From a bacterium (GTDB lineage Bacteria; Patescibacteriota; Saccharimonadia; Saccharimonadales; UBA4665), in NCBI GenBank assembly GCA_027448765.1, contig DAIDMV010000001.1, positions 14,439 to 72,888 on the forward strand: a stretch of DNA of 58,450 nucleotides, written 5' to 3'. Below the pieces are notes generated by a model. That model was not told the origin of the DNA, did not search any database, and saw nothing but the letters and a program-made list of their open reading frames with translations. Of this stretch, positions 32,286-36,061 are shown one piece after another. Position 1 is the first letter of the stretch. Every line of letters begins with the position of its first letter. Made by a program: the position numbers and the translations under genes.

Positions 32286-32789
32286 ATGACTCATGAAATT
32301 TATTTAATAGCCTTGTTGGTAATTCCAGCTTTAATTATCTATATTTTTGGAGTTAATGCGGTTTATTTATTTTTTAGTTTATTGATAGGTTATTTATTGA
32401 CTAATTTATTGCCAGGTAATGTTAACAAATTGGTTAATCTGTTTAATTCATCAAATTTTGTTGATGTATCACAAACCTATGACTCCAAATTAATTATTTT
32501 ATACTTACCAGTTGTTTTAACTTTTATTTTTATGGTTAAAAGCGTCCACGGTATTCACAAAGTGACTAATTTAATTGCCAGCATATGTTTTATTGTCTTA
32601 GCTGTTTTTTTAACTTTACCATTAATTAAAACTAATCAAGTATCGTTTTTGCTTAACAATAATTTCTTTCATCAGTTAATTGCGAATAAACCAGTCATTA
32701 TAATTATAGATTGTTTGATTATTTTAGTTTTTTTATTGTTAGAGCGTTTTAAACATAAAAAAACTAATTCAAAAAAACATCATCATTGA
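32286..32789 (+). CDS. Multi-pass membrane protein, hypothetical
   Basis: 167 residues with about five hydrophobic helices and a basic, histidine-rich tail (RFKHKKTNSKKHHH). The layout resembles a small CvpA-like or integral membrane protein, but I see no diagnostic motif. TATATT ends 6 nt before ATG 32286, so a leaderless transcript is likely. The 3' end overlaps the convergent apbE gene by 26 nt. Confidence 0.6.
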   Translation: MTHEIYLIALLVIPALIIYIFGVNAVYLFFSLLIGYLLTNLLPGNVNKLVNLFNSSNFVDVSQTYDSKLIILYLPVVLTFIFMVKSVHGIHKVTNLIASICFIVLAVFLTLPLIKTNQVSFLLNNNFFHQLIANKPVIIIIDCLIILVFLLLERFKHKKTNSKKHHH

Positions 32790-33663
32790 TTTTTCTTTGG
32801 ATATAACATTCACGAACTAAGTTGATTGATTCCAATTTATCCAACAAACTTTCATCGATCAAAATGGCTTTAGCAAAAACATCTGTTTCGGTTGCTTTAT
32901 TGCCACTAACTGTGACCGTTAAGATATCATTATTGACTGGTTTAAGGGTTGATGGATTGATAATATGATTCCAATTTAACCCACGGCGTTTCGTAATACC
33001 TGAAGTCGCAACGCTAAGTAATTGGTTTGAATTGTTGTTAATTATTTTGTAAAAACTATTAGTGTTGATGGCTTGAGCGATTTTAATTTGCCAATCTTGT
33101 TTGTTTTCGTCGTGTCCGTTAACTATAATATCGCCACCGATAGATAGCCAATAATTATTGTAACCGGATTTTAAAAGTTTATTAGAAATTTTATCTAGTA
33201 GATATCCTTTTCCGATACCACCTAAATCAATAGCCGAGTGTTTGGGGATTTTAACCCAATCATCTCCAATTTCTAATTTATCAATTGTCTGGAAAGTTCC
33301 GTTTTTGTAGTTAATGGTAGTTTGGGCGTAATCTGGGTGAGGCCATGAGCCTAAATAGCCCGCTTGTTGTAAATTAGGTAGTATAAAAGGATTAAACAAT
33401 CCTTTGGTAATTTCACTCAGTCTTTTAGCTTCTTTTAAAATTTTGATAAATTCAGCTGAAATATGAAATTTTTGGTTAGTGTGATGATTAAGATTGGTTA
33501 ATTGACTATTTGTTTGAAAACGAGAATATTTTTTTTCGAATTCATCTATCGTTTTAATAATTGATAGAAATAAATCTGTTGGTTGACGATTATTTTTGCT
33601 AACAATTGAAATAAAAATATCTGAATTTAAAGCAAAATATTTCTTTTGAAAAAAATATTCCAT
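32764..33663 (-). CDS. apbE: FAD:protein FMN transferase (ApbE family)
   Basis: 299 residues. Family landmarks are IDLGGIGKGYLLDKI (the GGIAKG-like motif), WLSIGGDIIVNG, ATSGITKRRGLNWNHIINPSTLKP (H-I-I-N/D-P) and TETDVFAKAIL (Mg-binding T-x-x-D). It attaches FMN covalently to a threonine or serine of target flavoproteins using FAD. I see no lipobox or signal peptide, so the compartment is uncertain. It starts one base after the stop of the FNR-type reductase and shares its operon. No obvious flavinylation target with a D-x-x-S/T-G-A-T motif is present in the window. Confidence 0.9.
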   Translation of the reverse strand: MEYFFQKKYFALNSDIFISIVSKNNRQPTDLFLSIIKTIDEFEKKYSRFQTNSQLTNLNHHTNQKFHISAEFIKILKEAKRLSEITKGLFNPFILPNLQQAGYLGSWPHPDYAQTTINYKNGTFQTIDKLEIGDDWVKIPKHSAIDLGGIGKGYLLDKISNKLLKSGYNNYWLSIGGDIIVNGHDENKQDWQIKIAQAINTNSFYKIINNNSNQLLSVATSGITKRRGLNWNHIINPSTLKPVNNDILTVTVSGNKATETDVFAKAILIDESLLDKLESINLVRECYIQRKINDDVFLN

Positions 33664-34644
33664 TTATGAAACACTAGTAATAGGAGAATGGTTGTCGTGT
33701 AGGTAAATGCTGTTAGGATTATTTTGATTGATATGGATAATGAAACCATTGTTATTATTTTGTTTATAAATTAAATTTTGAACCTGAGGTATAGCCCAAA
33801 GATTATCGATCATTGTGATGAAAATAATTCCAAAAATCATAGCTGCCCCAAGTAATATATAAATATTTTTTTCTAATTTTTTATTGGGTACGTTAGAGAT
33901 TGAACTAATTTGATTACTAGACGTGAATTGTTCAATAATAATTTTTTCTGGTTTAACATTAATAGCGATTAAATCGTGATTTAGATCATTAATAAACTTC
34001 GTCGGACCACATATAAAATAAGTAAAACTATTTGTTCGTCGTTTAACGATCCTTTTAATGTGCTCGATCTCAATATAATTAGAAATAAAAAAACCTTTTT
34101 TGTCTGGATCCATCGGGCCATTACTAACAAAGAAGATAACTTTAAAATTTGGATTAATGTTTGTTAACCTCATTAATTCATCATAAAATGGAATATTGTC
34201 CTGAGTAGTATTACTATAAAAAAGCGTCATAGTGATTTTAGATTTAACGTCTGAGAGATATTTAATCATACTAATAAAGGGAGTAACCCCGATGCCGGCT
34301 GCCAAAAAAATAGCATGTTTATCTAGATTTTCATCGATAACAAAATCTCCATATGGTCCATTAACTTGAAATTTGGTATCAACAGGAAGCTTTTTGAGTT
34401 TTTTAGTGAAATCACCTCCAATTCTAACAGCAAATTGCAATTCATTTTTTTCGTATGGCGAACTAACAATTGAAAAACATCGAGCAGGAGAAGGACGAAA
34501 ATTATGTACAAAATTAATTGAAGCATATTGACCGGCTAAAAAGTCTAATTCATCTTCTGAAGTCTTTGGTTTAAGAGTAATTAGAAGAGTTCTTTTTCCA
34601 ATTAATAAACTATCCTTCAAAAAGTAAGTTTTAGGTTTTTTCAT
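33664..34644 (-). CDS. Membrane-anchored ferredoxin-NAD(P)+ reductase-like flavoprotein
   Basis: 326 residues. The FAD domain has RCFSIVSSPYEKNELQFAVR (R-x-x-S-I-x-S). The NAD(P) domain has FLAAGIGVTPFISMIKYL, TLFYSNTTQDNIPFYDEL and the C-terminal YFICGPTKFINDL. After the reductase core, about residue 232, comes a membrane helix (IYILLGAAMIFGIIFITMI) and a short outer segment. So electrons from NAD(P)H could be passed to a membrane partner. It is cotranscribed with apbE, which suggests a flavinylated electron acceptor. There is no 2Fe-2S domain, unlike NqrF. Confidence 0.85.
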   Translation of the reverse strand: MKKPKTYFLKDSLLIGKRTLLITLKPKTSEDELDFLAGQYASINFVHNFRPSPARCFSIVSSPYEKNELQFAVRIGGDFTKKLKKLPVDTKFQVNGPYGDFVIDENLDKHAIFLAAGIGVTPFISMIKYLSDVKSKITMTLFYSNTTQDNIPFYDELMRLTNINPNFKVIFFVSNGPMDPDKKGFFISNYIEIEHIKRIVKRRTNSFTYFICGPTKFINDLNHDLIAINVKPEKIIIEQFTSSNQISSISNVPNKKLEKNIYILLGAAMIFGIIFITMIDNLWAIPQVQNLIYKQNNNNGFIIHINQNNPNSIYLHDNHSPITSVS

Positions 34645-34777
34645 AGTTTTTTATTTTAATATTTTTAACTGATTAATTACTTAAAATAAATTTAAAGTTA
34701 TTGCTTTCATAATAACACTAAATTTAATAATGATTAAAAAAGATTATTAATAGCAGTATAATGAGTTTAAATATTTT

Positions 34778-35554
34778 ATGGTAAGAGTTATATTAATCTT
34801 AGTTTGTGTTATTTGTTTAATTTTGGCTTTTAAGCCAGAAAAAAAGAAAGTATTAATCGAAAAACATCCTTCAACCTTGACGACTGAAGCTAGCCCAATT
34901 ATTCATAAAAAAAGTAGTGTCAATAATTGTTCTAATAAAATAGTTATATATTTTGATAAATATGGTTTTGAGCCAAATGAATTAACGGTACCACTTAATA
35001 GCCAAGTAACCGTTAGAAACACTACTAATAAAAATTTATTATTTGAAGCTTTAGCTAATCAGCCCAATCAAAATAATGCTTTAAATTTAGGAACAATACC
35101 TCCGGGTGGTGCTAAAAGTTTTCAGATTAATAAATCTGGTGTTTGGCAGTTTCAAGCTAATAATAAACCTGAAGTTAGGGGTGAAATTGGTGTTGGTTCT
35201 TTGGGTTATTATCCATCAGGCCTTTGCTATAATAAATCTAAAAATAGTTTTTATGCTCTTACAAAAAAAACTTTTAAGATTTTTTATGACAGCTTTGGTT
35301 TTATGCCAAATCTAATTTCTGTTAAAACCGGAACTAGTATTGTTATTTATAATAAATCTACCTTCACTCAACCTGGACCAATGTTTTTTGCACCAAGGCA
35401 GATTGATCAATCAAGTATTTATCAACTTTTAAGCCTAGGTTTTATTTATAAGCAGCAACAAAAATCTTTTATAGCTCAGTATCCTGGTATTTACAAATAT
35501 CAGGATGTTTATCAACCCCAACCAAAATCTTTGGGTGAAGTTAAAGTTTATTAA
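34778..35554 (+). CDS. Membrane-anchored tandem cupredoxin-like protein without copper ligands
   Basis: 258 residues. An N-terminal helix (VILILVCVICLILAF) acts as anchor or signal. Two similar domains follow: IYFDKYGFEPNELTVPLNSQVTVRN... ending GVWQFQANNKPEVRGEIGV, and IFYDSFGFMPNLISVKTGTSIVIYN... ending GIYKYQDVYQPQPKSLGEVKV. These are the beta-strand patterns of cupredoxins, but the His/Cys/Met copper ligands expected after the V-x-N strand and near the C-terminus are absent in both. Divergent from the apbE-FNR operon. Structural or binding role unknown. Confidence 0.7.
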   Translation: MVRVILILVCVICLILAFKPEKKKVLIEKHPSTLTTEASPIIHKKSSVNNCSNKIVIYFDKYGFEPNELTVPLNSQVTVRNTTNKNLLFEALANQPNQNNALNLGTIPPGGAKSFQINKSGVWQFQANNKPEVRGEIGVGSLGYYPSGLCYNKSKNSFYALTKKTFKIFYDSFGFMPNLISVKTGTSIVIYNKSTFTQPGPMFFAPRQIDQSSIYQLLSLGFIYKQQQKSFIAQYPGIYKYQDVYQPQPKSLGEVKVY

Positions 35555-35592
35555 GATTTTTTAAATGATATTTGTTTTTAAATAAATTATAA

Positions 35593-35763
35593 ATAGCTTA
35601 TAGACATCAATTAACTAACGGTAAGTTTGCAACCGAAGTTTTCAATTATCTATCACAAGCTAAGTTTGACCCTAATAACCCTCAACATGTTGAGAGAGTT
35701 GCTAGTCCCAAGACCGCTATTTTAGCAGATTCCTGCTTTATCAATAATTTATTAGCTAGCTAG
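35593..35763 (+). pseudogene. Coding remnant at the start of the tRNA-Lys island
   Basis: A frame of 56 codons without an ATG reads IAYRHQLTNGKFATEVFNYL, SQAKFDPNNPQHVERVASPK and TAILADSCFINNLLAS before TAG. It has protein-like composition but I recognise no family. From 35764 to 36061 I see no gene; a small hairpin GTCTGAAGAC lies at 35873-35882. Confidence 0.35.
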
Positions 35764-36061
35764 TGGTCATTAGAGAAAGATACTATAAGAAAGGGTAAAA
35801 TTAAATTGGTTTTAGTGAAATTTCAGTTACTCAGGATAAAAAAGAGTTTATACCCGGAGGTAATTAAAAATCGTCTGAAGACGCTGATTTTGTCGTAGTG
35901 TAGGTCCTGTAAAGAAGTAAGTTGTATATTTTTCACCCAAGAATTTCTTAAATGGAGGCAACTTCTTGATAGTCAACATAGACAGGCTCGAATTCAAAAG
36001 AATGAATAAAATTAATTTGACATTATAGCTAATAGGTAGCATTCGTGGTAAAATGTATTAT

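Follow-up and report, generated by a model that had tools for sequence, protein, structure and literature searches.

The window, by which we mean the whole stretch of 58,450 nucleotides that was analysed, comes from a genome of the Saccharibacteria type (G000), which comprises 96 contigs with 744,607 bases and was searched by protein family. The genes and features considered here are as follows.

32286–32789, plus strand: small membrane protein, convergent to apbE, used as a landmark only (open reading frame; synteny)
32764–33663, minus strand: ApbE-family FMN transferase, 299 aa (PF02424, E 3.9e-44)
32869–32871, minus strand: codon for ApbE Lys265, at the Thr of the D...T metal-site motif (alignment with ApbE1 and 6nxi)
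33664–34644, minus strand: FNR-type NAD(P)H/FAD reductase, 326 aa (PF00970, PF00175)
33667–33669, minus strand: Ser326, the terminal residue of the reductase and predicted site of FMN attachment
33667–33684, minus strand: PITSVS, residues 321–326, candidate flavinylation site (tip conservation in relatives)
33667–33801, minus strand: disordered tail after the helix, approximately residues 282–326, presumed extracellular (pLDDT below 50 for 286–326)
33802–33876, minus strand: single membrane helix of the reductase, approximately residues 257–281 (hydropathy in relatives; model helix 255–293)
34778–35554, plus strand: cupredoxin-like protein, membrane-anchored, two-domain and copper-less (PF13473, E 1.4e-6)

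The apbE gene starts on the base right after the reductase gene, leaving a gap of 0, and is on the same strand, in agreement with the operon proposed in a first-pass annotation. The families matched (PF02424 for ApbE, PF00175 and PF00970 only for the reductase) also agree with its description of a reductase lacking an Fe-S domain, and the cupredoxin-like gene is divergent as it had stated. Each gene was assumed to begin at the first start codon following a stop, and hence some protein lengths may be inexact. At their 3′ ends, apbE and the convergent gene for the small membrane protein share 26 bases (32764–32789). In two congeneric genomes, G003 and G004, an intact gene of 284 aa follows the cupredoxin-like gene, and no such open reading frame is present at 35555–36050 in the window.

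The predicted structure of the reductase consists of a well-folded FNR domain, a hinge, the helix and the disordered tail, and the closest folds were those of cytochrome b5 reductase, the FAD domain of NqrF and the dehydrogenase domain of SpNOX (8qq1). The protein had been thought to end in its membrane helix, but about 45 further residues follow the helix and the final six are PITSVS. Of 392 genomes in the order, 60 contain a match to a reductase profile at E≤1e-40; the weakest matches extend over the FNR domain only. For comparison, 59 reductase loci were collected. In the relatives, the order of the operon is reductase, ApbE and FRD, a ferric-reductase-like two-heme membrane protein that matches Ferric_reduct (PF01794) and carries an H-x13-H pair. 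When the genomes of 84,980 species were scanned, this architecture was seen only in CPR records among those of the listed matches whose loci were checked.

Among the 56 loci with room on the contig, 55 have ApbE immediately after the reductase, the sole exception being G018, where the only ApbE is elsewhere. FRD follows ApbE in all loci with room except those of the window's genus, namely the window genome, G003 and G004, in which an FRD is found beside a FUR-family gene at an NQR/RNF-like locus. In the window genome this is a separate electron-export locus (L064, G000:C4, 4265–7565) containing an FMN_bind protein (QIISGATFTS), an ApbE1 without a signal peptide and a 500-aa fusion of an NqrB/RnfD-like protein with FNR, and the FRD gene there is divergent from the FUR-family regulator. 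In G042, apbE-FRD adjoins MP167-rimK-rimP-dnaJ, which is the window's own neighbourhood, and the FRD gene sits between apbE and the counterpart of the small membrane protein gene at 32286–32789. This synteny, and the grouping of the unlinked FRD of the window genome with the FRDs of the window operon's clade, make it most likely that the window operon lost its FRD from this position, and the unlinked FRD may be the same gene relocated. In the cysteine-tail clade (L060, 9402–10304, and similar loci), a fourth gene encodes one membrane helix and a Big_14-like domain, with long versions adding a cupredoxin-like domain that, like the window protein, seems to be copper-less.

The tails that follow the helix in the relatives are disordered, approximately 45 to 240 residues long (median 87), and consist mostly of Ser, Thr, Pro, Asn, Gln and Ala. 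Their linkers could not be aligned and only the extreme C-termini align. To assess the tip, 19 non-redundant tails from the window's clade and from three genomes of other CPR lineages were used, with groups taken from a tree built without the tail, and the last 40 residues were shuffled 2000 times as the null. S was found at position −1 in 18 tails, P at −6 in 18 and S or T at −4 in 18, while position −2 was V, A or M in 17 of the 19. A terminal [S/T]xxS was present in 17/19 tails, compared with a mean of 2.2 and a maximum of 7 in the shuffles, and the observed level of column conservation was reached by none of the 2000 shuffles. The last six residues in the window's clade and the three other CPR lineages follow the pattern P-x-[S/T]-x-[V/A/M]-S. 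This ending was seen in Kerfeldbacteria, in G644 and G529 and in another Saccharimonadia order, lineages outside the named records being assigned by relatedness only. Terminal-Ser tails occur to either side of the tree's midpoint root, and judged from this distribution the form is probably ancestral.

In other clades the ends of the tails (TTPSGRCI, CTTxSGVTTC or KTTASIPPP-like) are likewise conserved; the extensions differ, and the [S/T]xx[S/T] core is kept, including an exchange of S for T at its last position. The core could be read in 47 of 48 tails, a count that leaves out near-duplicates and four unclassed tails and that uses class definitions which partly presuppose the last residue of the core. 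The tail type of L058 (741–2150) and L275 (G052:C12 and G062:C82) is without the motif. In place of the tip, these two reductases carry a terminal Peptidase_S74 (chaperone of endosialidase) domain, and they have in common with the window's tail the heptamer NPNSIYL. B1 and B2 tails contain exactly two Cys, which flank the core and suggest a disulphide and therefore an extracellular tail, and the A and B3 tails contain none. The average numbers of K+R around the helix (2.1 versus 1.6; positive-inside rule) lean only weakly towards a tail on the outside.

ApbE attaches FMN to the last residue of the motif D-x-x-[S/T]-G-A-[S/T], and a seven-residue tag suffices, working best at the end of a protein (PMC12052999). 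According to the same paper, replacing D with A has a minor effect, the changes G to A and A to V leave about half of the modification, and Ser is accepted. In FMN_red proteins, flavinylation sites are known on an unstructured C-terminal extension (PMC11334425). The full motif was not found in the reductase tails, in which D and G are not kept. Both hydroxyl positions, [S/T]-x-x-[S/T], are retained, often with A or V in the third place, and the tip can be described as resembling [S/T]GA[S/T] with the canonical D and G-A missing. The earlier statement that this region has no target with the usual motif overlooked the PITSVS tail, and at another locus the genome has an ordinary FMN_bind protein with an ApbE of its own.

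The ApbE of the window operon retains the FAD-binding and HI.(D/N)P motifs (DLGGIGKG, GGDI and HIINP) and matched the structure of Vibrio cholerae ApbE (6nxi) with an E value of 1.1e-22. It departs from the D...T metal-site motif, with Asp261 kept and the Thr replaced by Lys265; the corresponding residue in clade B is Ser, and for this reason catalysis may differ. Lys was found in 20 of the 21 operons with terminal-Ser tails and Ser in most others, though tail type and ApbE residue both track the phylogeny, so that these cases do not count as independent events. An operon-type ApbE with the Lys residue was also found at L266 (G212:C116, 3675–4607), where neither a tailed reductase nor FRD adjoins it. 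Judged by the N-terminus, none of 54 operon ApbEs has a convincing signal peptide, and the enzyme would have to act before export of its target. A similar situation was seen at the 18 canonical loci inspected, in which ApbE1 lacks a convincing signal peptide and the FMN_bind partner has an N-terminal membrane anchor; three of these 18 ApbE1 have short N-terminal extensions that probably reflect the choice of start codon. The export problem is therefore common to the canonical ApbE1/FMN_bind loci and not special to the operon with the tailed reductase.

Gene order, the tail, its conserved tip, the co-occurrence of the genes and the lack of other known targets were all observed, and from them we infer flavinylation of the serine, an extracellular tail, a partnership with FRD and the route of the electrons. 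The target of ApbE is probably the reductase's own tail and not the cupredoxin-like protein. In the system we propose, the cytosolic FNR domain would take electrons from NAD(P)H through FAD, and these would pass the membrane via the two b hemes of FRD, whose gene adjoins apbE in relatives and is unlinked in the window's genus. On the outer side, they would arrive at an FMN joined by ApbE to the serine at the tip of the reductase tail. The tail would take over the role that a separate FMN-binding-domain protein plays in known systems and, being flexible, could carry the flavin back and forth between outer heme and acceptor. ApbE, being cytosolic, would probably modify the tail before export. 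We consider this proposal as a whole, transmembrane electron export with FMN tethered on the tip of the reductase tail, to be reasonably well favoured on the sequence evidence, and it fits the general idea of ApbE-based electron export by a membrane reductase put forward in the first-pass annotation. A more specific version, for which the balance is even, is that a distinct clade of cytosolic Lys-type ApbEs flavinylates the terminal Ser of a disordered tether, giving a swinging-arm flavin instead of a folded FMN-binding domain in Saccharibacteria and other CPR.

The most serious alternative, though an unlikely one, is that the ApbE of the operon modifies a separate FMN_bind protein and that the tail serves as a spacer, or else as a peptide that docks to FRD or to the cell wall. 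FMN_bind domains are the usual targets of ApbE (PMC8238504), and the window genome has such a protein (QIISGATFTS); however, this protein is encoded in an operon together with an ApbE1 of its own. Using a match at E≤0.1 as the threshold, FMN_bind was absent from 24 of 49 reductase-bearing genomes and from 17 of the 28 of high quality. Among 18 near-complete reductase genomes without FMN_bind, 16 have every ApbE inside the reductase operon. Of the other two, one contains just a single ApbE, unlinked to the operon, and the second possesses an additional NQR/RNF-like operon that includes an FMN_bind-like protein. DUF2271 was found in none of these 18 and an NQR2/RnfD protein only in the one with the further operon. 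The earlier suggestion of a target elsewhere is thus possible for the window genome and does not extend to the many relatives that have the operon ApbE and no FMN_bind. A mere spacer would also not be expected to retain a conserved tip. In genomes with ApbE but no reductase, the ApbE partner is usually FMN_bind or a similar single-TM protein ending in an [SGA]G[SA]S-type motif, and such a partner lies beside ApbE in 14 of the 16 doubtful loci inspected, the exceptions being in G212 and G103. The ApbE of the latter (L269, G103:C5, 3971–4843) has a DUF1304 protein as its neighbour, and no FMN_bind-like gene was recognised in the vicinity. With few exceptions, therefore, ApbE is found either with an FMN_bind-like protein or with the tailed reductase, and confinement of ApbE to the operon in 16 of the 18 genomes makes the reductase's own tail its most likely substrate.

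It is also conceivable, if a little less so, that the tip is some other signal (for a protease, a glycosyltransferase, docking to FRD or a disulphide-closed cap) and that ApbE has a different target. The departure of the tip from the canonical motif, its position between two cysteines in B1 and B2 tails and the changed metal-site residue would all suit such a signal, but the near-invariable adjacency of reductase and ApbE, and the retention of [S/T]xx[S/T] through several differing endings, even with T for S at the last position, argue against it. Two further candidates were rejected. The possibility that the motif TG[A/L][S/T] in a loop of FRD is the ApbE target is barely credible: the loop, by analogy with NOX enzymes, is predicted to be cytosolic and so on the same side as ApbE, and TGAT or TGAS is present in 5 of 50 FRDs, but the motif is missing in the other 45, including that of the window genome (TGFI). 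A role for the cupredoxin-like protein as structural partner or target, raised in the first-pass annotation, is very improbable, although it is the divergent neighbour in all three congeneric genomes with this version of the operon, the window's included. Outside these three, the gene is beside none of approximately 55 reductase loci, and the protein lacks both a flavinylation motif and copper ligands. Six other full-length homologues have unrelated gene surroundings, and four of the six come from genomes lacking a full-length match to the reductase. The two-domain architecture described for this protein was supported by the predicted structure (a cupredoxin fold, mean pLDDT 72; best PDB matches multicopper oxidases and NirK), and the reported lack of ligands was confirmed, with the His/Cys/His/Met set absent from both domains in all nine aligned proteins. 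As its homologues are all copper-less and it lies next to the operon in the three congeners only, while other relatives keep the operon without it, the cupredoxin-like protein is probably a bystander. For the cupredoxin, this is essentially the outcome that the first-pass annotation had named as refuting its reading.

If the tail of the reductase is indeed the substrate, it represents a new class of ApbE substrate without a folded flavin domain, suggests an electron-disposal route for ultrasmall bacteria and raises the question of how a flavinylated tail gets across the membrane. In the open-licence literature, we found no paper linking ApbE to a reductase tail in CPR. A large ApbE census filtered by signal peptide described extracytosolic flavinylation as 'strikingly underrepresented' in CPR (PMC8238504), and this operon could have been missed because the Saccharibacterial ApbEs lack signal peptides.

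Among the closest known arrangements is that of the MsrQ-like flavinylation systems (Meheust et al. 2021, PMC8238504), in which a PF01794 heme protein, a PF00175 reductase and apbE occur together as they do in the relatives of the window. Here, however, the reductase is encoded as a protein by itself, equipped with a membrane helix and a tail, the operon has no FMN_bind gene and an ApbE without a signal peptide, and the PF01794 FRD, found in the apbE cluster of all relatives with room, is unlinked in the window's genus. The NQR/RNF-like two-subunit systems, which have been reported in CPR (PMC8238504, PMC11334425), also move electrons outward from NAD(P)H by way of a protein that ApbE modifies, but the window operon lacks both an NqrB/RnfD-like domain fused to FNR and FMN_bind, such a system being present separately at G000:C4. 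Gram-positive flavin-based EET of the Listeria type differs in having an exported ApbE (FmnB) and a PplA-type FMN_bind lipoprotein, neither of which is in the operon. The FMN_red proteins (Huang et al. 2024, PMC11334425) are likewise flavoproteins in which a motif of the flavinylation type lies on a disordered extension at the C-terminus, though they have another fold, are found mainly in Firmicutes and carry their sites beside their own flavin pocket, whereas here the tail comes after a membrane helix. The artificial flavin-tag (PMC12052999) is likewise a short ApbE motif at a protein terminus, in contrast to the natural, non-canonical sequence that ends a tether here. Finally, NADPH oxidases such as SpNOX also have an FNR dehydrogenase domain feeding transmembrane hemes, but here these parts are on two separate proteins and are accompanied by ApbE and the tail.
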